Below, piece by piece: positions 9,312 to 38,081 of a stretch of DNA of 39,529 nucleotides. The notes under the pieces were generated by a model, which had not been told where the DNA came from, searched no databases, and saw nothing but the letters and a program-made list of their open reading frames with translations. The position numbers and the translations under genes were made by a program. This DNA is from an uncultured Ectothiorhodospiraceae bacterium (GTDB taxonomy: Bacteria; Pseudomonadota; Gammaproteobacteria; Nitrococcales; Nitrococcaceae), in contig CAJXKP010000026.1 of assembly GCA_913055565.1 (NCBI GenBank), positions 1 through 39,529 of the forward strand. Reading direction: 5' to 3'. Position 1 is the first letter of the stretch. Every line of letters begins with the position of its first letter.

Positions 9312-10103
9312 TCACGCCGCTTCGCCGGCGATGGGTTCCGGCTGTTCCGCCGTCGTCGCCCCGCCCACCAGCGCCAGCGTACCGTCGCGCTCCTCCACCA
9401 GAGCCGTGCAATTATCGATCCAGTCGCCGGCATTGCAATAGGTAATGTCGCCGTAGCGCAGCGTTGGACGATGGCTGTGGCCGCAGACGATGCCGTCCAC
9501 GCCACGCTGGCGCGCGGTGTGGATAGCGGCCTCCTCGAAGCGCCGAATGAAAGGCGAGGCGTCGCGCGACTGGTGCTTGAGGAAGCGCGCCAGCGACCAC
9601 GGCGGCAGCCGAAGCCACCGGCGCAGGCGACTCAAGGCCTGATTGACGCGAATCAACGCGCCGTAGGCACGCGTGCCGCCAATGGCGATTAGCCGCGAGA
9701 ACTGGACGGCGCTATCGAACTGGTCGCCGTGGACTACCAGTAGCCGCCGGCCATCAGCCGTGGTGTGGACCAGGCGATTGACGACGCGAATATTGCCCAG
9801 GGCGGTGCCGCGATGGACCCGCAGCATCTCGTCGTGATTACCCGGAACGTAGATAACGCGTGTGCCCCGCCGGGCCTTGGTCAGGATCGCGCGCAGGACG
9901 TCATTACAGGCCTGCGGCCAGGCGAAACCGTGCTGCATGTACCACAGATCCACGATGTCACCGACCAAATACAGGCGGTCGCACTCCACGGACTTAATGA
10001 AACGCCGAGCGTTGTCGGCCCGCGAGCCGGGGAAGCCGAGGTGGAGATCGGAGAGCCAGACGCTGCGATAGTAATGGGCGCTGGGGTGGCTGTGGACGCT
10101 CAT
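9312..10103 (-). CDS. plcP: Calcineurin-like metallophosphoesterase, PlcP-type phospholipase C
   Basis: A 263-residue metallophosphoesterase with the full motif set: SDLHLG (18-23), VGDIVDLWYMQ, YVPGNHDEML, VVHGDQFD and CGHSHRP near the C-terminus. Such proteins are usually labelled UDP-2,3-diacylglucosamine diphosphatase, but LpxH proper has GNRD where this has GNHD. PlcP, described in Sinorhizobium and marine heterotrophs, removes the head group of phospholipids during phosphate starvation to leave diacylglycerol. PlcP-encoding genes typically neighbour a GT4 glycosyltransferase (Agt), exactly as here, where agt is transcribed divergently. A strong candidate Pho box lies 49 bases upstream of the start. 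I therefore prefer PlcP over LpxH; the family is certain, the substrate is inferred. Confidence 0.8.
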   Translation of the reverse strand: MSVHSHPSAHYYRSVWLSDLHLGFPGSRADNARRFIKSVECDRLYLVGDIVDLWYMQHGFAWPQACNDVLRAILTKARRGTRVIYVPGNHDEMLRVHRGTALGNIRVVNRLVHTTADGRRLLVVHGDQFDSAVQFSRLIAIGGTRAYGALIRVNQALSRLRRWLRLPPWSLARFLKHQSRDASPFIRRFEEAAIHTARQRGVDGIVCGHSHRPTLRYGDITYCNAGDWIDNCTALVEERDGTLALVGGATTAEQPEPIAGEAA

Positions 10104-10152
10104 GGGCGCGCTTCTCGTTTTGCCTCATCACCCGTAAATCTGCCCCAAGGGC

Positions 10153-10170
10153 ATGACAAACGGATCACAG
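10153..10170 (-). promoter_or_regulatory. Candidate Pho box for plcP
   Basis: Read on the minus strand: CTGTGAT-CCGT-TTGTCAT. Each 7-base half matches the PhoB consensus half CTGTCAT at 6 of 7 positions, with the standard 4-base spacer. It ends 49 bases before the plcP start codon. Best scoring of the six candidates together with the 13912-13940 site. Confidence 0.6.
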
Positions 10171-10216
10171 GCAGGCGTCACTAGGATGACGGGCGCTGTG
10201 ACCACTGACACGCCTG

Positions 10217-10232
10217 TGACGCTGCAGCGTCA
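10217..10232. promoter_or_regulatory. Perfect 16-bp palindrome TGACGCTGCAGCGTCA
   Basis: Perfect dyad in the plcP/agt divergent promoter region. A related near-palindrome, TGACGTTGCAACGACA, lies at 13935-13950 upstream of the Mpo1-like gene. Each palindrome is separated by 73 bases from the start codon of the gene it precedes. The downstream half of each overlaps the first half-site of a candidate Pho box, so it may be part of that site or a second regulator's operator. Confidence 0.4.
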
Positions 10233-10244
10233 TGGCCCTTTAAC
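10227..10244 (+). promoter_or_regulatory. Candidate Pho box for agt
   Basis: GCGTCAT-GGCC-CTTTAAC on the plus strand; each half matches the PhoB half-site at 5 of 7 positions. It ends 61 bases before the agt start. Weaker alone, but it resembles the first two half-sites of the 13912-13940 site (ACGTCAT-GCGC-CTTTCAA), which also end 61 bases from their start codon. Confidence 0.4.
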
Positions 10245-10305
10245 CCGGGCCTGCCAGCCTCGTGATTGCCCCGGCGAGCCCGCCGGCAACCAACGAGGTG
10301 AGGCC

Positions 10306-11334
10306 ATGCGGATAGCCATTGCCACCGATGCGTGGTTCCCCCAGATCAACGGCGTGGTGACCACCCTATCCCGAACCGCCGACGCGCTACGCGAGGGTGG
10401 CGACACCGTCCAGCTGCTCACGCCATCCGAGCACCCGACGATCGCCCTGCCGAGCTACAAGGAGATCCGGCTAGCGCTGGCACCCTATCGGCGGCTGGCG
10501 GATCGGCTCGACGGCTTCGTGCCGGACGCCATCCATATCGCCACGGAGGGACCGATCGGCTGGGCGGCCCGGCGATACTGCCGGCGCCGCGGCCTGCCGT
10601 TCACCACCGCCTACCATACCCAGTTCCCGCGCTATGTCCGGCTCCGCGCTCCCATCCCCGAGACGGCGACCTACGCCTGGCTGCGGCGGTTTCATGCGCC
10701 CGCCCGACGCACCCTGGTGCCGACACCCTCCATGCGCCAGGAGCTCGCCGACTGGGGCTTCCGCGGCCTGAGCCTGTGGCCGCGGGGTGTCGATACGGAG
10801 CTATTCCACCCCGCGGCCGCGACGGCACTCGATGTGCCAGGCCCCATCCAGCTCTACGCTGGCCGCGTAGCGCGGGAGAAGAACCTGGAGGCCTTCCTGG
10901 CCGTGGATACGCCCGGTACCAAGGTCGTCGTCGGCGATGGGCCCGACCGCGAGGCGCTGGCGCGCGATTATCCGGACGCCGTGTTTACCGGCTATCGCCG
11001 CGGCCGCGACCTTGCGGCCACCGTGGCCACCGCCGACGTCTTCGTCTTCCCCAGCCGCACGGATACCTTCGGGCTGACCATGCTCGAGGCCATGGCCTGC
11101 GGCGTGCCGGTAGCCGCCTACCCGGTCACCGGCCCGCGCGATGTCGTCACCGAGGGCGTGACCGGCGCCCTGGACGAGGACCTAGGCGCCGCCATGGCGC
11201 GCGCCCGTGGCCTGGACGGCGCCGACTGCCGCGCCGTCGCCGAGGGTCACACGTGGTCGGCCTGCGCGGCGCGCCTGCGCAGCCAGCTAGCGCCCATCAG
11301 CCGAGTGCCGATGCCCGCCGCCGAGCCGGCCTGA
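10306..11334 (+). CDS. agt: GT4 glycosyltransferase, Agt-like (glycolipid synthesis)
   Basis: GT-B fold glycosyltransferase of family GT4, about 342 residues. The N-terminal half starts MRIAIATDAWFPQINGVV with a glycine-containing acceptor loop. The C-terminal half carries the nucleotide-sugar site: LYAGRVAREKNLE (R and K of the donor phosphate site), then VVGDGPDRE, and the EX7E-like DTFGLTMLEAMACGVPVAA. I chose ATG 10306 because GAGGTGAGG lies just before it; the open frame extends 51 codons further up without a good start. Divergent from the PlcP-like gene, it matches the known plcP-agt pairing in which Agt glycosylates the diacylglycerol released by PlcP to give mono-glycosyl or glucuronosyl diacylglycerols. 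Sugar specificity is not visible. Confidence 0.78.
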   Translation: MRIAIATDAWFPQINGVVTTLSRTADALREGGDTVQLLTPSEHPTIALPSYKEIRLALAPYRRLADRLDGFVPDAIHIATEGPIGWAARRYCRRRGLPFTTAYHTQFPRYVRLRAPIPETATYAWLRRFHAPARRTLVPTPSMRQELADWGFRGLSLWPRGVDTELFHPAAATALDVPGPIQLYAGRVAREKNLEAFLAVDTPGTKVVVGDGPDREALARDYPDAVFTGYRRGRDLAATVATADVFVFPSRTDTFGLTMLEAMACGVPVAAYPVTGPRDVVTEGVTGALDEDLGAAMARARGLDGADCRAVAEGHTWSACAARLRSQLAPISRVPMPAAEPA

Positions 11335-29326: not shown

Positions 29327-30199
29327 TTACGCCGAGGTCGGCGCGCGGCGGCCTTCGAGCTGACCGAGGCCGTGATCACAGGGGACGGCCGCGCGGAACG
29401 CGAGCTCGGCGTCGGCGCGGGTTCGGCCCAGGTTGATGGCGGCGCATGGCAGGCCGCGCTCGCGGGCGGCGCGAATGAACCGCAATCCGGACCAGACCAT
29501 TAACGACGACCCCACGACCAAGACCCCATCGCAATCATCCAGGGCCGCCATCGCGGTGTTCACTCGGGCCATGGGCACCGACTCGCCAAAGAAGACCACG
29601 CTCGGGCGCAGCGTGCCACCGCAGCTATGGCACCCCGGAACCCGGAACGCACTGTAGTCGCTGCGCTCGAGATCGGCGTCGCCGTCCGGCGCGGCGCCGC
29701 TGTCGAGCTCGGCCCAATCCGGATTGGCTGCCACGAGCTCGGTCTGCAACGCGTCGCGCCCCATAACCCCGGCGCAATCGAGGCACTGTACCCGACCCAA
29801 GCGGCCATGCAGATCGATCACGCGGCCGCTGCCGGCCTGTTGATGGAGGCCATCGACATTCTGAGTGACGATACGCGCGATGTGGCCGCCCCGTTCGAGC
29901 CGGGCAAGGGCATGATGCGCCGCGTTGGGGCGCGCGGCCGCCATGCGCGACCACCCCACCATGCTTCGGGCCCAGTAGCGCTTGCGTGCCTGCTCGCTAC
30001 CAGCGAATTCGGCCCACTGCATGGGCCGGCTGCGCTTCCAGGCGCCCGCGCCGTCGCGGTAATCGGGTATCCCCGAGTCGGTGCTGCAGCCGGCGCCAGT
30101 GAGCACGTAGAGGCGCGGGTGGTCGGCGATGAACCTCGCCAAGGCCTGGTCGGCCGTATCGCCGGTCAGTCCTGGCGTTGGCGATTCAGCACTGCTCAT
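29327..30199 (-). CDS. Sir2-family NAD-dependent protein deacylase
   Basis: Sirtuin of 290 residues that removes acyl groups from lysines using NAD. The NAD pocket is seen in VLTGAGCSTDSGIPDYRD (32-49) and TQNVDGLHQQAGS; the catalytic histidine is in DLHGRLGRVQC. Zinc ligands are the pairs CLDC and CHSCG. VVFFGESVP and VVGSSLMVWSGLRF complete the fold. A 30-residue insertion between the zinc pairs is rich in Asp/Ala. The start overlaps the DUF2845 stop as TAATG, indicating translational coupling. Substrates are unknown. Confidence 0.93.
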   Translation of the reverse strand: MSSAESPTPGLTGDTADQALARFIADHPRLYVLTGAGCSTDSGIPDYRDGAGAWKRSRPMQWAEFAGSEQARKRYWARSMVGWSRMAAARPNAAHHALARLERGGHIARIVTQNVDGLHQQAGSGRVIDLHGRLGRVQCLDCAGVMGRDALQTELVAANPDWAELDSGAAPDGDADLERSDYSAFRVPGCHSCGGTLRPSVVFFGESVPMARVNTAMAALDDCDGVLVVGSSLMVWSGLRFIRAARERGLPCAAINLGRTRADAELAFRAAVPCDHGLGQLEGRRAPTSA

Positions 30200-30914: not shown

Positions 30915-32141
30915 TCAGCCCATTCCAGCGGATGCGGCGAGCAGTGTACGGCGCACCCACAAGGTCACCCAGAAACCGAGGAAGGCCATCGCGAACCAGA
31001 TCCAGCCGTGCAAACTTGCCGAGGCAATGCCGCCGAGCATAGCACCAATGTTGCAGCCGAACGCCAGCCGAGCGCCGTAGCCCATGGCCAGCCCGGCGGC
31101 GATGGCCGAAGCGCTCGCCGCCAGACCGGGACGTTGAGCGGCATTCGCGCGGAACTGGCCCCCCAACCCAGCCGCCAGGAAGGCCCCCAACAGGAGGCCG
31201 AGATCGGTCACGGAGGTGGCGTTGACCCAGACTCCTTGCGCCAAACCCTGGCGGGGATAGGCCCAGCGCCAGTACTCGAATTGCGTCATATCCACGCCGA
31301 GCGCCGTTAGGGCCTCCGCGCCCCAGAGGCTAAAGCCGAAGGTAATCCCCCAGGGCGCGCCGGCGACCCAGAGTACTGCGGCCCCAAGCCCAGCCAGGGC
31401 GACGGCACCCCAGAGCAGCGGCCACGGCCCGGTGACCGCCGCCGTCAGCCGGGGGCGGCTCGGGCCAACTCCAAAAAGCGCATGGGCCTCGCCGTGTCGC
31501 CGCCGTTCGAGGGCGCTCAAGGCGGCCCCTAGTCCCGCGAGGACGGCGAGCTGTAGGGCAAGCGCGGGCTGGCTACCGAACTCGCGGGCCAGGCTGATCG
31601 CCGGTAGACCCGGGGTCTGGAGCCACCACGGCAGATGGAGGCTGCCGATAACGGAGCCCACGATGAATGCGACCAGGACGATGAACATGCGCGGCTTGCC
31701 AGCGCCCGTCAGGAACAATGTCCCGGAGCCACAGCCACCGGCCAACGCCATGCCGACCCCAAACAGGAACGCCCCGACCACGAGGGCGACGCCCACGGGT
31801 GCAACGGCGCCCGCTAGACCTCCATGCCAGGTCAGCAGAGGAACGAACGCGATGCTGGTCAGCGCCAGCACAAGGAGCTGAGCGCGCAGGCCCAGGGTGC
31901 GCCTTTCGAGCACGCAGCGGCGCCAGCCGCCGCTAAAACCGAAGCCGGCGTGGCATAGGCTCATGCCGAGGCCCATGCCGAGGATAAAGAGCAACAACCT
32001 ATCCGCTGGCGCCCGCCATGCCAGCACAGCGAGCAGGCCGAGCGCTCCCAGGCAGGCCGTTAACACGACCGGGCGATCGCTAGGGCCGCTCGCCGCCGAC
32101 CCCTCAGCGGGCGCCCCAGCGATCGGCATGACCGCCCTCAT
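30915..32141 (-). CDS. YeeE/YedE (TsuA-like) thiosulfate/sulfur transporter
   Basis: Inner-membrane transporter of 408 residues with about nine to ten hydrophobic segments. Family signatures with key cysteines: GMSLCHAGFGFSGGWRRC, MALAGGCGSGTLFLTGAG and, near the end, ARLAFGCNIGAMLGGIAS. In TsuA these cysteines relay thiosulfate across the membrane. I chose ATG 32141 (weak site GCGGGA); an ATG at 32129 is also possible. It starts 34 bases after the DUF302 gene, suggesting an operon. The cargo could be thiosulfate or another sulfur or selenium compound. Confidence 0.88.
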   Translation of the reverse strand: MRAVMPIAGAPAEGSAASGPSDRPVVLTACLGALGLLAVLAWRAPADRLLLFILGMGLGMSLCHAGFGFSGGWRRCVLERRTLGLRAQLLVLALTSIAFVPLLTWHGGLAGAVAPVGVALVVGAFLFGVGMALAGGCGSGTLFLTGAGKPRMFIVLVAFIVGSVIGSLHLPWWLQTPGLPAISLAREFGSQPALALQLAVLAGLGAALSALERRRHGEAHALFGVGPSRPRLTAAVTGPWPLLWGAVALAGLGAAVLWVAGAPWGITFGFSLWGAEALTALGVDMTQFEYWRWAYPRQGLAQGVWVNATSVTDLGLLLGAFLAAGLGGQFRANAAQRPGLAASASAIAAGLAMGYGARLAFGCNIGAMLGGIASASLHGWIWFAMAFLGFWVTLWVRRTLLAASAGMG

Positions 32142-32175
32142 GGTCCCGCTACGTACGGCCTGACGGATACGGCGG

Positions 32176-32637
32176 TCACTCGTCTGGCGCGACGGTGTCC
32201 TGGGCCACCCTGGCCAGGATCTTCTCGACCTTAGCCAGCGGCGGGCAATCCGACATACCATGCCGCTCGGCGAGATAGGCCGGGTCGTTGTAGCCCAGCC
32301 AGACCTGACCCTCGGCGTCTTCCCAGACCAGGGCCTTCATCGGCAGGTCGATGCCCGCCGTCTGGGCACACTGCATCAACGGCGTCCCGCCCTTGGGGTT
32401 GCCAAAGATCACCACCCGGGTCGGGCGCAGCTCCATATCAACATCCGCCGCACCCGCGGCGTGATCGATGCGGTTAAAGATCGTGAGCCCGCGCTCGTTG
32501 GCCTGAGCCACGAAACGCTCGGCGGTCTTTGCCAAGGGGTAGGGACTCGCCAGGCGCACCAGTCCCTTGGCCGCCTTAGCCGTCCCGGCAACCAAGAGCA
32601 AGGCGAGCGCCAGGGCGAAACGCTGCAATCGGTGCAT
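32176..32637 (-). CDS. DUF302 family exported protein
   Basis: A 153-residue protein with signal peptide (about 1-22, ending AKA) and one DUF302 domain: LAKTAERFVAQANERGLTIF, then NRIDHAAGA, VVIFGNPKGGTPLMQ and PMKALVWEDAEGQVWLGYND. The ATG at 32637 is preferred over 32643 because GAGGAG lies 6 bases before it and directly abuts the other. DUF302 proteins often occur with sulfur or metal genes, but no activity is established. Same strand as YeeE/YedE, 34 bases upstream. Confidence 0.9.
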   Translation of the reverse strand: MHRLQRFALALALLLVAGTAKAAKGLVRLASPYPLAKTAERFVAQANERGLTIFNRIDHAAGAADVDMELRPTRVVIFGNPKGGTPLMQCAQTAGIDLPMKALVWEDAEGQVWLGYNDPAYLAERHGMSDCPPLAKVEKILARVAQDTVAPDE

Positions 32638-32734
32638 CGGCATCTCCTCAGTAGCTGTACGGTGTCAGGCGATTAGCCGCCGGCACTCGGCTATTTGGCC
32701 GCCGCGGCAAACGGCGTGCTCGCCGCGGGCTTGA

Positions 32735-32960
32735 TCACTGACCCTCGGCCTCGCCTTCCGCCTCGGCCTCTCCTTCCGCCTCGGCTTCGGACTCCGCTTC
32801 CGCCTCAGGCTTGGCTTCGGACTCGCCCTCGGCTCCGGACTCAGCCTCAGCCTCGGCCTCCCCTTCCGGCTTGGCCTCGGATTCACCCTCGGCCTCCGCC
32901 TCGCCTTCGGCGTGAGCCTCCCCCTCGGCCTCACCCGCACCTTCGCCCTCGGCCTCACCG
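32735..32960. repeat. Low-complexity GAG/GCC-rich repeat tract (copy B tail)
   Basis: Imperfect short-period repeats encode the alternating Glu tail. Such tracts can change length by slippage and should be checked in long reads. Confidence 0.7.
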
Positions 32961-33118
32961 GCCGCCGCCATGCTGTAGCCCTGTTGCGGGCGCGCCGCAT
33001 CCGAGTAGATGGCGTCAGCGGCCGCATAGCCGGCCACGGCAACGAGTACCGGCGCCGCATAGGCCACCGTTCGCGAGACGGTCTTAATCAACTGTTGGCG
33101 CTTATCGTCAGTGGGCAT
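32735..33118 (-). CDS. Small protein with leader-like N-terminus and acidic Glu/Ala/Gly tail (copy B)
   Basis: A 127-residue protein of no known family. Residues 7-34 hold a basic stretch (RQQLIKTVSRT) and a hydrophobic helix (VAYAAPVLVAVAGYAAADA). From about residue 54 to the end, glutamate alternates nearly perfectly with Ala, Gly or Ser (EAEGEGAGEAEGEAHAEGEA pattern), interrupted by two EAKP units. The end is EGEAEGQ. The N-terminus aligns without gaps to copy A (34443-34793): 9 of 21 positions identical over RQ-L----SR-----AP--VA. ATG follows AGGAGG; TGATCACT lies 13 bases upstream, as in copy A's leader. I infer a substrate or precursor for the divergent TTL-like ligase; a simple acidic periplasmic or metal-buffering protein is the alternative. 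Confidence 0.7.
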   Translation of the reverse strand: MPTDDKRQQLIKTVSRTVAYAAPVLVAVAGYAAADAIYSDAARPQQGYSMAAAGEAEGEGAGEAEGEAHAEGEAEAEGESEAKPEGEAEAEAESGAEGESEAKPEAEAESEAEAEGEAEAEGEAEGQ

Positions 33119-33178: not shown

Positions 33179-33598
33179 TCAAACCTCGTTGCCGCGCACG
33201 AGGAAATAGATGGCCACTACCAGCAGTGTGACCTCGAACATCATGCCGCCCATGGGATAGCCCGGCGACGGCATGAAATGCCATTGACCCCACTTCGCCA
33301 TGAAGATCGCCCCCAGCAGGATGCCTATCATGGCCGCGGCACCGAGCCGCGTGACCCAGCCGTTGGTTACGCCACCAACCAGGATCAGCACGCCGCCCGT
33401 GATCTCGCCGAGCGCCACCAGGGTGGCCAGGAAGACGGGCAGGCCGAAGACCGTCGCAAAACCCGCGATACCGCCGCCCATGAACTTATCGATGCCCATG
33501 TAGAGGAAAACGGCCGCCAGGCCGACACGCAGGACCCAGTGGCTATGCCGCCCCAGGTCATCGAGGACTTGATCACCCGTATGAATCGGTGCACCCAT
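33179..33598 (-). CDS. DoxX family membrane protein
   Basis: A 139-residue inner-membrane protein with four hydrophobic helices. The first carries VLRVGLAAVFLYMGIDKFMG, then FGLPVFLATLVALGEITGGVLILVG, the usual DoxX pattern, and a final EVTLLVVAIYFLVRG. Strong ribosome site GGAGGAGG. DoxX proteins act in redox or thiosulfate-related complexes in some organisms, and also sit beside peptide-maturation operons. It lies between the DinB gene and acidic copy B on the same strand, 60-82 bases from each. Confidence 0.88.
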   Translation of the reverse strand: MGAPIHTGDQVLDDLGRHSHWVLRVGLAAVFLYMGIDKFMGGGIAGFATVFGLPVFLATLVALGEITGGVLILVGGVTNGWVTRLGAAAMIGILLGAIFMAKWGQWHFMPSPGYPMGGMMFEVTLLVVAIYFLVRGNEV

Positions 33599-33680: not shown

Positions 33681-34223
33681 TCAGCCCGCCTGCGCCGTCG
33701 GCATCCGGCCCGAACCCTGCACCCGCGTGGCCCTCGCGACGCCGAACTCCGCCGAGGGCTCGACGCCCATATGAACCGCCAGCATCCGGATGAGCGCCAT
33801 GTGATGGAGGGTATGACTGGCCACGAATGCAAGCTCCCTGGCCACCGTCGTCGCCAGCCGCAACTCGGCCTCGCTAGCGCCGTCATCCGGGTGGTAGTGG
33901 AGGGCCATGGGGGCGTCGGCGCGCGCTGTCTCCGCCAAGGCCTCCAGCTCGTCACACAGCCCGTCGAGGCGGCGGCGAGCCGCCGCGATCGAGCGCTGCG
34001 GGTCCGGATTACGTTGCCGGCGGTCGTAATCGACGCCCGAGCCACTGCCGAGCAGCGCCTCGTAGTGCTCGATGAGATGACGCACATGTTCGCCGAGGCT
34101 ATTGCTGCCGAGCGCCGAGTGCTGGCGTTGGTACTGCTCCGCCGTGAGCTCGGCGATGAGCTCCGCCGTCTGGAGGATCAGATTACGATTCTCACCGGTT
34201 AACAGTGTCAGGTCGTGATCCAT
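33681..34223 (-). CDS. DinB family metal-binding four-helix protein
   Basis: A 180-residue DinB/YfiT-like protein. Its three likely metal-ligand histidines are in GEHVRHLIEHYEALL, TTVARELAFVASHTLHHMALI and around HYHPDDG. These proteins form a four-helix bundle with a bound metal and often act as thiol transferases or unknown hydrolases. It ends before DoxX. A 219-base gap with a hairpin separates it from acidic copy A upstream. No clear Shine-Dalgarno is seen before ATG 34223. Confidence 0.82.
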   Translation of the reverse strand: MDHDLTLLTGENRNLILQTAELIAELTAEQYQRQHSALGSNSLGEHVRHLIEHYEALLGSGSGVDYDRRQRNPDPQRSIAAARRRLDGLCDELEALAETARADAPMALHYHPDDGASEAELRLATTVARELAFVASHTLHHMALIRMLAVHMGVEPSAEFGVARATRVQGSGRMPTAQAG

Positions 34224-34442: not shown

Positions 34443-34625
34443 TCAGCCCTCGGCTTCGCCCTCGGCCTCGGCCTCACCTTCGCCTTCACCTTCGCCTTCG
34501 CCTTCGCTCTCACCTTCGGCCTCGGCGAGATCAAGGCTGTCGGGGGTGTTTAGGCTGGCTTCGCCCTCGCCTTCACCCTCGCCTTCGCCCTCGCCCTCAC
34601 CTTCACTCTCACCCTCGGCTTCAGC
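34443..34625. repeat. Tandem and low-complexity repeats in the copy A tail
   Basis: Two near-identical coding units (about 100 bases apart) plus short GAAGGC/GAGGGC repeats encode the Glu-Gly tail. Confidence 0.7.
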
Positions 34626-34793
34626 GAGATCGAGGCTGGCGGTCGCCTCAGGGGCAGCATGGCTGCCGGCACTGGCATCCGCCCCGGCAAAGGCACTGCC
34701 GGAAACGGCCGCCACCATGAGCGGGGCCGATACCAACAGGCTCCGCGAGAGGGCCGTCTTGAGTGCTTGACGGCTGGCATTCGTCTCGGACAT
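34443..34793 (-). CDS. Small protein with leader-like N-terminus and duplicated Glu-Gly tail (copy A)
   Basis: A 116-residue protein of no known family, divergent from the TTL-like gene. Residues 8-28 (RQALKTALSRSLLVSAPLMVA) resemble copy B. A hydrophobic segment ending SGSAFAGADA (about 19-40) could be a signal or membrane helix. The tail contains two copies of a unit SLDLAEAEGESEGEGEGEG (about 53-71 and 86-104), each followed by more Glu-Gly pairs; the chain ends EAEGEAEG. Glu alternates with Gly or Ala throughout. Acidic Glu/Gly tails with this look are the kind TTLL ligases polyglutamylate or polyglycylate on tubulin. ATG 34793 with AAAGGAGGT 5 bases upstream. Substrate status is inference. 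Confidence 0.72.
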   Translation of the reverse strand: MSETNASRQALKTALSRSLLVSAPLMVAAVSGSAFAGADASAGSHAAPEATASLDLAEAEGESEGEGEGEGEGEGEGEASLNTPDSLDLAEAEGESEGEGEGEGEGEAEAEGEAEG

Positions 34794-34810
34794 GAGACCT
34801 CCTTTATGTT

Positions 34811-34818
34811 TGATCACT
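34811..34818 (-). promoter_or_regulatory. TGATCACT shared by both acidic-protein leaders
   Basis: TGATCACT is at 34811-34818 upstream of copy A (start 34793) and at 33131-33138 upstream of copy B (start 33118), in each case just ahead of an AGGAGGT ribosome site. It may reflect common ancestry of the two genes or a shared translational signal. Confidence 0.35.
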
Positions 34819-35028
34819 CGTCAACGCTCACAGGCGTGACATTATTAAAGTAGCAGTCATTCAGGCCCGTGCTTTATACGCGAAAAAACGTAGGCGCGCG
34901 CCGACAACACGGTGTTAGTCTCAGCTCGCCGAGCGGCGGCCAATGGCAAGGCTAGCGCAACGCTGAACGATTCGCGCGGGCCTGCGGGCCATTCGGTAGA
35001 AGCGGTCACAGAGTAAGGGGAGCGGCCG

Positions 35029-37413
35029 ATGAAGCGAGCATGGTTTGGTGGTAAGCGTGAGCCCATCCAGGATCGGTACTTCCGTGATGCCCTCGATCCG
35101 AACCACTGGCGTGAAGGCGATGCCGAGGACTGGCAGACCTGCTGGTTTACGGGCATGCCCAAGCCGGCCGTCTTCGAGCAGCTCGACGCCACCAAGACGG
35201 TAAATCACATCCCGGGCAACAACAGCCTGACGGTCAAAAGCAACCTCTACGCCACCCTGGCCGCCGCGCACGAGCGCCTCATCGCCCAGGAAGGCACCGA
35301 CGGCGAGCGCCCTCGCCGCCTGCGTTTCTTCCCGACGGTTTACAGCATGCCGCAGGATTATCACGCCTTCCTGGCGGCTGCTTGGGCCGCACCCGACAAG
35401 CGCTGGATCCTCAAGCCTAAGAACGGCTCACGCGGCAAGTCTATCCGGCTGATCACGGATCCAGCCGCGGTACCCGCGGGCGACCGCTGGATGGTCCAGG
35501 AATACCTGGATCGGCCCCACACCATGTTCGGGCGCAAGTATGTCCTTCGCCTCTACGTCCTCATCACATCCGTCGATCCGTTGCGCGTCTACCTCTATCA
35601 CGAGGGCTCGGCGAAGCTGGCCTCCGCCGCCTACGACCCCGATGACAGCGACAACCTCTACGCCCATCTGACCAACCCCGACGTCAACGCCACCAACCAG
35701 GCCAACGCCTCGCCGGTGGTGTTCGTGAATCTGGATCAGTACCGCGAATGGCTCCAGCAACAGGGCCACGACGACGGCGTCCTCTTCGAGCGGCTGCGCG
35801 AGATGGTGACGCTGACCGTGCTGAGTGCGCGCGAGAAGATGCACCAGCGCCTGCAGGCGGTAAGCGCGGACACCTCGGGCTGCTACGAGCTGCTTGGGCT
35901 CGACTGCCTGGTCGATGCCGACCTCAACCCGTGGCTGCTCGAGTGCAACCTCAGCCCATCGCTGGAGACCTGTGCCGCCCCTGAGGACGGTGGCGACACC
36001 GAGACCCGCAACAAGCGCCAGATGATCGAAGACATGGTGCGCCTGCTCGGCCTCAATGAGGCGCCACCCGAGCGCACAGGGCAGGCGGAGCCCGAGCGCC
36101 TGATCGACCACGCCGAGGCGGAGCGCCTGCGAGCCGGCGGCTTTAAGCGCGTCTTCCCGAACGCCGACGCCGCCGACTATCTGCCCTTCCTCCCCATGCC
36201 GCGCCTGGCCGATATGGTGCTCGCCGAGCACGCCAGTGGCCGGAGCCTGACCCGGCCGGTCATGCAACCGCGTGCCACCCAGGAGCTAATCGCCGACGAC
36301 CGGCTGAGCCTCTACAACGAGCTCACGCAGACCCTCTACACCCCCAACCCGTCAGCGGCATGGATATGGCTGCAGGCCGTCGATGGCGCCGATGCCGACC
36401 GTATCGCCGAGGCGCTGGCGACGGCCCGCGGCGAGGCCGGGGAGGAGACGAGCTGGAGCACGCGTCAGGAGGTATGGGATCTTCTGGCCGACTGGGCGGC
36501 AACGGGGCTCCTCGTCCAGGCAACGGGCGAGGCGACGCGTGAGGCAACGCCCCCGACAACGGCCCATGCCGCTGCCAGCGCACCACCGACGCGCTACCTG
36601 GTCCTCGGCGACGCTATCATGGCCGTCACGATGCCGGACTGGGGGCTCGACGAGCGGCTGCAGCAGGCCTTCGCACCGCTGCTCGCCAGTAACGTGACAA
36701 CCTCACCCGAGCGTGAGCTACAGGTCCTGACGATGGGGGGCGGCTACGCCCTCGCCTGCTCGGGCGAGCTCACGGCAAGCGGCCTATCCGTGGCGGCTGT
36801 CCTACCGACGCTGCAAGGGCAACTCGGCACCGAACTGGCACGCATCCGTTGCGGTAGCGTGTTGCTAGGCGCCCTGGTGCCGATCGGGATCAGCGACCAG
36901 GCCCTATGGGTGCTGCCCGTTAGCCGCGATGGCGACACGGCGATGGCCCTCAGCCTCGCGGAGCGGCTCGGCGCTGGCCACAGCGGCGGTATCGAGCTCG
37001 GCGACGACGGCAAGGCTCAGCCTCTTGGTCTGCCAATTGCCACGAAGACAGAACCGAGATCGGATGAGCATGCCTTCCACCATGGCCGCGACGGCGAGGC
37101 GCCCTATTACCTCGCGGCATCAACGGCACCATCCATGCACGCCGGCTATACGGTGGTCGGCGTCGTTCAACCGAGCACCGATGACAGCACGGGCGGCGAC
37201 GCGCTTAGTTTGCACGAACTCATGCCGGCGGTGATCCATGGCCTCGCCACCGGTGCCGAGGGCGGCCTGGATGCGGCGACGGCCGGCTGGTTTTGGGACT
37301 GGCTCGGCCAGCGGCAACTGCTCACCGCCGATGCGTCCCAGACCAACGCCCTCGAGCGCGTGGTACAACGGCTTGCCCCCGCCTGCGAGTGCAACGACGC
37401 ATCGGCGCCGTAG
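35029..37413 (+). CDS. TTL-like ATP-grasp ligase fused to PqqD-like recognition and HPr-kinase-like domains
   Basis: A 794-residue protein. Residues about 45-345 match tubulin-tyrosine-ligase-like enzymes closely: WILKPKNGSRGKSI (K129, nucleotide loop), WMVQEYLDRPHTMFGRKY, then VLRLYVLITSVDPLRVYLYH, AHLTNPDVN and LLGLDCLVDADLNPWLLECN followed by LSPSL, keeping the metal-binding E305 and N307. TTLL enzymes join amino acids (Tyr, Glu, Gly) to protein tails using ATP. Residues about 425-497 resemble PqqD-type RiPP recognition domains (YTPNPSAAWIWLQAVDGADA, then the VWDLLADWAATGLLV helix). Residues about 521-690 resemble HPr-kinase-like proteins, but the phosphate loop reads PVSRDGDTAMAL with no GKS/T, so kinase activity is unlikely. 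Start ATG with AAGGGGAG. Divergent from acidic copy A. Ligation to the acidic tails is inferred. Confidence 0.85.
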   Translation: MKRAWFGGKREPIQDRYFRDALDPNHWREGDAEDWQTCWFTGMPKPAVFEQLDATKTVNHIPGNNSLTVKSNLYATLAAAHERLIAQEGTDGERPRRLRFFPTVYSMPQDYHAFLAAAWAAPDKRWILKPKNGSRGKSIRLITDPAAVPAGDRWMVQEYLDRPHTMFGRKYVLRLYVLITSVDPLRVYLYHEGSAKLASAAYDPDDSDNLYAHLTNPDVNATNQANASPVVFVNLDQYREWLQQQGHDDGVLFERLREMVTLTVLSAREKMHQRLQAVSADTSGCYELLGLDCLVDADLNPWLLECNLSPSLETCAAPEDGGDTETRNKRQMIEDMVRLLGLNEAPPERTGQAEPERLIDHAEAERLRAGGFKRVFPNADAADYLPFLPMPRLADMVLAEHASGRSLTRPVMQPRATQELIADDRLSLYNELTQTLYTPNPSAAWIWLQAVDGADADRIAEALATARGEAGEETSWSTRQEVWDLLADWAATGLLVQATGEATREATPPTTAHAAASAPPTRYLVLGDAIMAVTMPDWGLDERLQQAFAPLLASNVTTSPERELQVLTMGGGYALACSGELTASGLSVAAVLPTLQGQLGTELARIRCGSVLLGALVPIGISDQALWVLPVSRDGDTAMALSLAERLGAGHSGGIELGDDGKAQPLGLPIATKTEPRSDEHAFHHGRDGEAPYYLAASTAPSMHAGYTVVGVVQPSTDDSTGGDALSLHELMPAVIHGLATGAEGGLDAATAGWFWDWLGQRQLLTADASQTNALERVVQRLAPACECNDASAP

Positions 37414-37553
37414 CAGCCGCTCGATGGGGCGTCCGCGCTCGCACCTTGGCCAGACCCCCTACGTAGTCACCCCAATAGCCCCGCTCGGCCGCCCGCTGGC
37501 ACGGTTATCTCCGACGTTAGAAGACCAGCTCACAGCAGTAGAGGAGATAACCG

Positions 37554-38081
37554 ATGGCCAAGATCCCGTACGCCGAGGAGGGTCACGAGGCCCAGGGCGC
37601 CGGCGCGGTCTACACGCAGTTCAAGGAAGGCCTGGGCGTGGTGCCGAATGTCATGAAGCTTGTGGGGCATTCGGGACCCGCGACCCAGGCGATGGGCAGC
37701 GTCTTGGACGCCTATTTCAATCAGCTCAGCATCGACGCCAAGCTCCGCGAGATCGCCTATCTGACGGTCGCGCGCTACAACGGCTGCGCCTACTGCCAGG
37801 GGCATCACGTGCCGGCCGGCAAGCAGGCGGGCCTGACCGATGGCCAGATCGAGCAGCTTGGTGAAGCCGGGTTCACTAGCAGCGACTTCACAGAGGCCGA
37901 GCAGGCCGTGATCCGCTTCGCCTACGAGTCCTCGCGCGACGTGGCCGCCTCGGACCAGACCATCGAGGCGCTCAAGAGGCACTACGATAATAAGGCCATC
38001 GCCGAGATCACCTACGTGGTGGCCACGGGCAACTTCATCCAGCGCATCGGCAAGAACTTGGGCGTGGAGCTAGAAGGCTAG
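37554..38081 (+). CDS. AhpD-like / carboxymuconolactone-decarboxylase family protein
   Basis: A 175-residue all-helical protein. The redox motif CAYCQGHH (about residues 82-89, in NGCAYCQGHHVPAGKQAG) is the AhpD-type CXXC with a following histidine, seen in alkylhydroperoxidases and related peroxidase reductases. LREIAYLTVARYN precedes it, and EITYVVATGNFIQRIGK follows. Ribosome site GAGGAG. It is 140 bases downstream of the TTL-like gene on the same strand, with a terminator after it, so the two may form a transcription unit. Function in that context is unknown. Confidence 0.88.
   Translation: MAKIPYAEEGHEAQGAGAVYTQFKEGLGVVPNVMKLVGHSGPATQAMGSVLDAYFNQLSIDAKLREIAYLTVARYNGCAYCQGHHVPAGKQAGLTDGQIEQLGEAGFTSSDFTEAEQAVIRFAYESSRDVAASDQTIEALKRHYDNKAIAEITYVVATGNFIQRIGKNLGVELEG

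Follow-up and report, generated by a model that had tools for sequence, protein, structure and literature searches.

The stretch of DNA analyzed here (the window, 39,529 nucleotides of a contig from an uncultured Ectothiorhodospiraceae bacterium) encodes a ligase of 794 amino acids, in which a catalytic core of the tubulin tyrosine ligase-like (TTLL) type is combined with a PqqD-like recognition element of the RiPP type (RRE; RiPP, ribosomally synthesized and post-translationally modified peptide) and a poorly conserved C-terminal domain. The open reading frame of this TTL-RRE ligase (35029..37413, forward strand) is divergently oriented to the gene of a small protein whose Glu-Gly tail is duplicated, and the gene of a second acidic-tailed protein follows 1.3 kb beyond the first, just as an earlier analysis without database searches (the sequence-only reading) had described. 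We propose that the three proteins belong to a leader-guided tail modification system, in which the RRE would dock the leader of the small proteins, the TTLL core would ligate amino acids to glutamates of their tails, and the products would then be exported. The proposal builds on the observed domain make-up and catalytic residues of the ligase, the common leader of the small proteins, the specificity of their tails for glutamate, and the co-occurrence of ligase and leader across genomes, and we assign it a probability of about 0.7. The further-reaching version, a bacterial "tail code" in which a leader-aimed TTLL glutamylase would put branched glutamates on exported small proteins and cytochromes c, has about even odds in our view.

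The TTLL-type ATP-grasp domain comprises residues 55-318 of the ligase (35191..35982, forward strand). It matched the Pfam family TTL with an E-value of 3.3e-53 and 181.3 bits, compared to a curated cut-off of 20.1 bits, and the TTLL motifs quoted in the sequence-only reading are all present. In the 2.7 Mb genome that contains the window (G000) the ligase is the sole TTL match. For comparison, 19 ligase homologues were aligned (alignment A2), which stem from 17 genomes of the order and from the genomes G207 and G317, and all 19 matched Pfam TTL. Every homologue has the same seven residues, K129, R174, T215, N216, D292, E305, and N307, and in the HLTN motif H213 is kept in 17 of the 19 and the leucine in 13. 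As is generally known from TTL structures, such invariant residues have roles in the binding of ATP or metal. When the A2 profile was compared with the sequences in the PDB, the best matches were TTLL6 (2.6e-62) and TTLL7 (1.5e-57), followed by TTLL11 (6e-31), the entry 5vlq (3e-21), which we take to be a TTLL3, and TTL (4.7e-17). Thus, the assignment to the TTLL enzymes stands, and it can be refined: judged from these profile matches, the closest solved relatives are the side-chain polyglutamylases TTLL6 and TTLL7, and not the tyrosine ligase TTL.

The acceptor site allows a more specific prediction. For TTLL6 it has been reported that its character as an elongase stems from Q180 and H362, and that an arginine at the position of Q180 favors gamma-linked addition (PMC7970040); Q180 has also been named the primary determinant (PMC12366701). 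The bacterial ligases have an arginine (18 of 19) or a lysine (1 of 19) at the position of Q180, and a leucine at the position of H362 in all 19 cases. The TTLL6 structures fall into two sequence types, one with Cys-Gln and His, which is also found in two longer TTLL6 chains, versus one with Ala-Arg and Ile, and the bacterial profile is nearer to the latter than to the former (214.7 versus 207.1 bits). From the combination of Arg/Lys and Leu at the acceptor positions we infer a site of the initiating type, and it is predicted that the ligase starts branches on glutamate side chains.

The candidate substrate across the divergent gap (class 1, 117 amino acids, 34443..34793, reverse strand) consists of an N-terminal leader (34680..34793), presumably also an export signal, and the duplicated Glu-Gly tail (34446..34625), which is the presumed modification site. 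The ATG at 34793, with AGGAGG just upstream, was preferred as start codon over the GTG at 34817. The second candidate (class 2, 127 amino acids, 32735..33118, reverse strand) combines a leader (32999..33118) with a tail of Glu, Ala, and Gly. The alignment revealed that the two leaders are homologous, as are those of further proteins encoded in ligase loci: 15 aligned leaders share invariant M, R, L, S, and P residues and the consensus RQxLLxxLSRGLxYSAPLL, and most members contain the feature [YF]xxP. For a leader model (A1), seeds were contributed by 11 of the 22 genomes that contain the ligase fusion, and both window proteins were among the seeds. The model matched class 1 with E = 1.9e-14 (model positions 1-38) and class 2 with E = 1.2e-17 (model positions 1-40), and these two seed genes are the only matches with E<=0.01 in the G000 genome.

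The tails differ in sequence and share their glutamates. Behind the same leader, relatives have tails of the types (GE)n or (EGEA)n, and members of the genus g5 have (PEAT)n and (PEAM)n, i.e., the glutamate was kept and the glycine was largely swapped for Pro, Thr, or Met (glycine content of 1-10% in seven of eight tails, and 17% in G010). In the last 40 residues of 32 tails, a count that left out the cytochromes and one disrupted gene (in G031), the ratio of Glu to Asp is 433:17, compared to 869:1062 in the ligases. Therefore, it is glutamate itself that is kept, and not acidity, while the intervening residues are exchangeable. The Glu and Gly codons of the tails are mixed (in the class-1 tail 12 GAA and 12 GAG, 10 GGC and 6 GGT), and together with the common leader and the bias for Glu over Asp this confirms that the Glu-Gly tail proteins are more than a product of chance. 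Among 33 leader proteins other than cytochromes not a single cysteine follows the leader; Lys and Arg together make up at most 5% of the tail with the exception of the disrupted gene and are absent in 17 members. The C-terminal residues vary and are not conserved, and no conserved Thr, Ser, or Lys partner was found in the tails of the compared leader proteins. Two minor observations concern individual tail genes. The class-2 gene of G031 (L030/L048) is apparently disrupted, with a shift of frame after the leader and a short EGEAES remnant. And a protein with a Glu-Gly tail (L028:12150-12464) exceeded the cut-off of the Pfam model TrAA12-like (PF22807), which suggests that low-complexity Glu-Gly columns are part of this model.

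A third class of leader proteins extends the range of candidate substrates to cytochromes c. In the five sequences that were read (L028:14312-15058, L031:11578-12246, L064:1501-2181, L093:5595-6491, and L094:2487-3200) the leader and a Glu-rich stretch are followed by a cytochrome c domain, and the four that were scanned have heme domains of the SoxA/TsdA or CCP_MauG type. The Glu-rich stretch is thus internal and not terminal in these proteins. Heme-binding domains with the motif CxxCH mature in the periplasm. Because the leader precedes such domains, it is probably an export signal, too, and the leader cytochromes are possibly electron carriers with modified tails.

The presumed leader-binding domain of the ligase is a PqqD-like RRE at about residues 428-497 (36310..36519, forward strand). 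Such a domain had been claimed in the sequence-only reading, and the homologues bear this out: 17 of the 19 matched Pfam PqqD with E<=0.05 (best 5e-8), and 12 of the 19 matched the NCBIfam family lasso_PqqD (NF033530) with E<=1 (best 8.4e-5). When a profile of the RRE segment from 15 sequences was compared with the PDB, TfuB1 (0.0051) and TbiB1 (0.0072) ranked first, and the third match had an E-value of 0.48, which supports the view that the RRE is closest to lasso B1 proteins.

For the claim that an HprK-like region follows, no family match was obtained. The last 277 residues (518-794; 36580..37410, forward strand) are poorly conserved and are missing from the six homologues of the genus g5, which are short. 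They gave no meaningful Pfam match, and no NCBIfam HprK or kinase family was matched in the 19 homologues at E<=1. An hhalign comparison with HprK_rel_A was collinear from end to end and weak (P-values of 0.089 and 0.0051, probabilities of 0.6% and 7%), and the P-loop of HprK_rel_A has no counterpart. Based on the lack of a family match and of the P-loop an active HprK-like kinase domain was rejected; a dead HprK remnant is a possible but weak interpretation. The order of a PqqD domain and a region weakly collinear with HprK_rel_A resembles the HPr-rel-A system (kinase TIGR04352, PqqD protein TIGR04353), and TIGR04353 matched weakly in 2 of the 19 homologues. In contrast to that system, the window encodes a single protein fused to TTL, without a P-loop and without a match to a kinase family. 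The G000 genome did not contain a match to the HPr-rel-A kinase at E<=0.001 among the 8 of 15 candidates that were scored.

In the sequence-only reading, a lack of co-occurrence across genomes had been named as a refutation of the proposed link between ligase and small proteins, and the link withstood this check. Within the order, 17 of the 54 genomes encode the ligase; it is also present in all three genomes of another order (G207, G317, and G413, which are all sampled genomes of that order), and in G541 and G795 from a sample of 398 genomes of the phylum. All 22 of these fusion genomes, including all 11 that did not contribute seeds to A1, encode leader proteins, nearly all of them with a Glu-rich stretch, and in 17 of the 22 a leader gene is located within 1 kb of the ligase gene. 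Strong leader matches (best E<=1.2e-14) were found in 19 of the 54 genomes of the order, so that both partners occur in 17 genomes, the leader alone in 2, the ligase alone in none, and neither in 35 (Fisher 3.6e-12; permutation restricted to the four variable genera, 1.6e-4). Because 11 of the 17 genomes were seed genomes and were bound to match, the figures without them are fairer: the table then reads 6/2/0/35, with a Fisher value of 4.6e-6 and a within-genus value of 0.015, which, by hand arithmetic, drops to about 0.004 when the genera of G541 and G795 are added. No strong leader match was found in 35 of the 37 fusion-free genomes of the order, nor, among the part of the candidates that was scored per genome, in any of the 365 fusion-free genomes of a class sample. 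In that sample of 369 genomes, a few of which belong to the order itself, strong matches of both models coincide in just four, i.e., G000, G207, G317, and G413. Together with the match to the RRE, this pattern supports the idea of the sequence-only reading that leader-bearing acidic substrates and the TTL-RRE ligase would form one system.

The fusions in G541 and G795 come from genomes of further taxonomic families. They were found in a Pfam TTL search of the 398 phylum genomes, which yielded 48 genomes with a match; besides G000, the surroundings of the TTL gene were read in these two, which have full fusions, and in G727, which has a weaker match. Both fusions contain a PqqD match, in both genomes a small protein with leader and GE tail adjoins the ligase and a cytochrome with leader and Glu-rich stretch is encoded within about 5 kb, and these proteins are the only leader matches in the two genomes. 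No leader match was obtained for ligase-free relatives, i.e., the congeners G478 and G416 and, from the family of G795, G323. The same is true for G246 and G727, the TTL proteins of which lack a PqqD match. Weak candidates were counted as negative, namely a leader match in G046 (E = 6.8e-4) to a protein without an acidic tail, six leader matches in the class sample with E>0.002, and six ligase matches in the class sample that covered the TTL part only, the strongest being that of G246 (6.6e-41), which has no RRE. The shorter TTL of G246 is encoded next to a protein whose start is Tat-like (L095:8759-9862 and 10058-10804), and the two may perhaps represent a different kind of TTL-substrate pair. 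The protein of G727 (L096:9045-11672, 875 amino acids) unites a 2OG-Fe(II) oxygenase, a GlcNAc-type glycosyltransferase, and a TTL domain.

Based on these results, the following sequence of events can be envisaged. The small proteins, as well as cytochromes c in part of the genomes, would be synthesized with a leader that doubles as an export signal and with a Glu-rich stretch. The ligase, which presumably acts in the cytoplasm because its first 60 residues contain no hydrophobic stretch and because it needs ATP, would dock the leader through its PqqD/RRE domain. The TTLL-type site would then use ATP for attaching amino acids to glutamate gamma-carboxyls within the stretch, resulting in branched tails of stronger negative charge. 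Glutamate is the most likely donor because the ligase is nearest to glutamylases. Side-chain modification is favored over C-terminal addition, since the C-terminal residues are variable and the cytochromes carry the stretch internally. Thereafter, the leader would take the product across or into the membrane, beside a DoxX partner. The neighboring genes would suggest, as a guess, that the final role is the binding of cations or metals by the polyanionic tail, or the tuning of charge near redox proteins.

Several points weigh against this proposal. Shared ancestry and the seed genomes inflate the raw Fisher values, and in the class sample no more than 20 candidates for the leader and 2 for the ligase were scored in each genome. 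In 5 of the 22 fusion genomes (G009, G014, G016, G018, and G040) the leader gene is not adjacent to the ligase gene and is located far off or, in G016, G018, and G040, on another contig, for which a contig break is a possible explanation. G010 and G019 (84% and 86% complete) encode leader proteins without a detected ligase. The PqqD match of the window ligase alone is weak (E = 0.0054) and under the Pfam cut-off, and in the ligase of G413 the frame is broken inside the RRE (PqqD positions 6-42 of 67). A structure prediction of the ligase, made from an alignment of 2 sequences, had a mean pLDDT of only 32.6. Furthermore, the class-2 gene of the window is located immediately downstream of a gene for a DoxX-family membrane protein (33179..33598, reverse strand; Pfam DoxX, 6e-10), and this arrangement was observed in 20 of the 21 genomes with a class-2 leader gene, even when the ligase is encoded at a distance; class 2 was defined by a leader that ends like ..HAI.SDA, and G541 and G795 were left unclassed. 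The exception is G031 with its disrupted class-2 gene, in which no DoxX was detected. The association of class-2 leaders with DoxX is thus as close as their association with the ligase, and the latter could be partly inherited with the operon. Finally, the sequence does not discriminate between Glu and Gly as the donor.

Accordingly, the ligase might be a bacterial glycylase that adds glycine, or else another amino acid, to the tail glutamates. Glutamate side chains are the acceptors of TTLL glycylases, too (PMC12340829), and the tails are rich in glycine in many genomes. However, the ligase profile is far nearer to TTLL6 and TTLL7 (about 1e-60) than to 5vlq, the presumed TTLL3, and the tails of the genus g5 contain little glycine, apart from the one of G010, so that we regard a glycylase as unlikely. 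Quite unlikely, too, is that the leader is a plain export signal of a DoxX-linked family, that the acidic tails reflect salt adaptation, and that the TTL-RRE protein acts elsewhere. The DoxX linkage described above would fit, and several of the hosts are probably halophiles. However, salt adaptation would make use of Asp as well, in contrast to the observed strong preference for Glu, class-1 and cytochrome leader proteins also occur without a nearby DoxX match (e.g., in L029 and L093), and the ligase co-occurs with leader proteins even when the genes are unlinked.

It has also been considered that the small protein is a scaffold, which would be extended at its C-terminus, as by TTL, TTLL11, or the peptide aminoacyl-tRNA ligases, for the release of a metabolite. 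Leader-bearing scaffold peptides with a C-terminal extension are known (PMC9016710; PMC11962472), but neither the variable C-termini of the tails nor the internal Glu-rich stretch of the cytochromes are in agreement with such a function, and among the window genes that were compared, genes for proteases or tailoring enzymes do not recur, the other neighbors in relatives not having been surveyed systematically; we consider a scaffold improbable. Least probable is a graspetide-like RiPP with intramolecular crosslinks in the Glu-rich stretch, which would share with graspetides the general outline of ATP-grasp enzyme, leader, and Glu-rich core, but for which the tails have hardly any Lys or Arg and no conserved Thr, Ser, or Lys partner, and the term "tubulin" is absent from the main text of PMC8939145.

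The proposed tail modification system has counterparts in eukaryotes. The addition of glutamate branches to Glu-rich tails, catalyzed by TTLL enzymes, has been studied as a modification of the eukaryotic cytoskeleton and cilium. The bacterial ligases share the TTLL ATP-grasp core, the catalytic residues, and the putative initiating-type acceptor site with TTLL5, which acts on RPGR-ORF15, and with TTLL4, TTLL6, and TTLL7, which act on tubulin tails. TTLL5 glutamylates the Glu-Gly repeats of RPGR, so that a Glu-Gly target is a further common point, as is a recognition element separate from the modified stretch (PMC13052805; PMC4890669). The antibody GT335 was reportedly generated with the peptide EGEGEEEG bearing two attached glutamyl units (PMC4890669), a sequence similar to the tail encoded in the window. 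In contrast to TTLL5 and RPGR, the system is bacterial, a TTLL5-specific domain and a basic C-terminal domain are presumably replaced by an RRE and a leader at the N-terminus, and the substrates are apparently exported.

Other parts of the system resemble RiPP pathways, and it shares with them a homologous leader on several precursors that are encoded near the modifying enzyme. The leader motif of lasso peptides is [YF]xxP, so that both the lasso-B1-like PqqD domain and the leader feature found in most members recall lasso B1 and other RRE-dependent RiPP systems. Unlike those, the enzyme is a TTLL ligase, the leader is signal-like, the modification is presumed to affect a long stretch rich in Glu, and neither a B2 protease nor a lasso cyclase was noticed in the loci that were read. 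The bufferins and oxazolins, RiPPs modified by MNIO enzymes (Buf_EGKCG, HvfA-HvfX), have been described as having Sec-type signals, repeats of the EGKCG type, and often a doxX gene in the cluster, and their signal peptide is assumed to take part in recognition by the enzyme (PMC12452194). Signal-bearing precursors, a repeat region, and a doxX neighbor are common to both systems. However, the tails of the 33 non-cytochrome leader proteins have no cysteines and hence no Cys-containing EGKCG-type repeats, a TTL-RRE takes the place of the MNIO and its DUF2063 partner, and the NCBIfam matches of the window proteins, which do not include the profiles of PMC12452194, contained no bufferin precursor family. 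A survey of RREs reported fusions to many Pfam domains, and its main text mentions neither tubulin nor TTL (PMC12710340). The parts of the system, TTLL ligase, RRE, and signal-bearing precursor, are hence of known kinds, and a description of their combination was not found in the open-licence literature that was searched, which is no proof of novelty.

If the proposal is correct, bacteria have a counterpart of the glutamylation of tubulin and RPGR, which would be a new kind of RiPP modification, with one signal sequence for enzyme docking and export alike, and would bring a further class of enzyme into leader-guided modification. With a defined enzyme, a defined leader, and natural substrates that have a length of about 70-130 residues, TTLL chemistry could be tested in E. 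coli, and the system might serve as a model for the handling of Glu-Gly repeats by TTLL enzymes, which is relevant to RPGR. Glu-Gly proteins and Glu-rich cytochromes that lack another explanation would be given a possible role as well.

The remaining features of the window are less closely tied to the system. The divergent intergenic region between the ligase and class-1 genes (34794..35028) has a length of 235 bp, and no sigma-70 consensus site was found in it by a simple scan. The gene of a carboxymuconolactone-decarboxylase-family protein (37554-38081) falls within the range given in the sequence-only reading and probably does not belong to the system, as no tblastn match at 1e-5 was obtained in 16 homologous loci, despite one weak match in L094 (25% identity, E = 3e-5), about 5 kb from the ligase. 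A DinB_2-family protein (33681..34223, reverse strand; Pfam DinB_2, 4.6e-15) is a frequent neighbor, with homologues in 7 of the 16 loci and further ones in L062, L064, L075, L076, L093, and L094. In the four genomes of the genus g5 in which the leader gene is unlinked, the short TTL-RRE gene adjoins a sirtuin-family gene (L012, L013, L014, and L015, which correspond to G009, G018, G014, and G016), and a homologous sirtuin gene is present in the window (29327-30199), about 5 kb from the ligase. The region 30915-32643, which adjoins the class-2 gene, encodes a small protein with a signal-like start and a membrane protein that is presumably YeeE/YedE-like, and homologues of this membrane protein are present in 4 of the 16 loci and also in L093.

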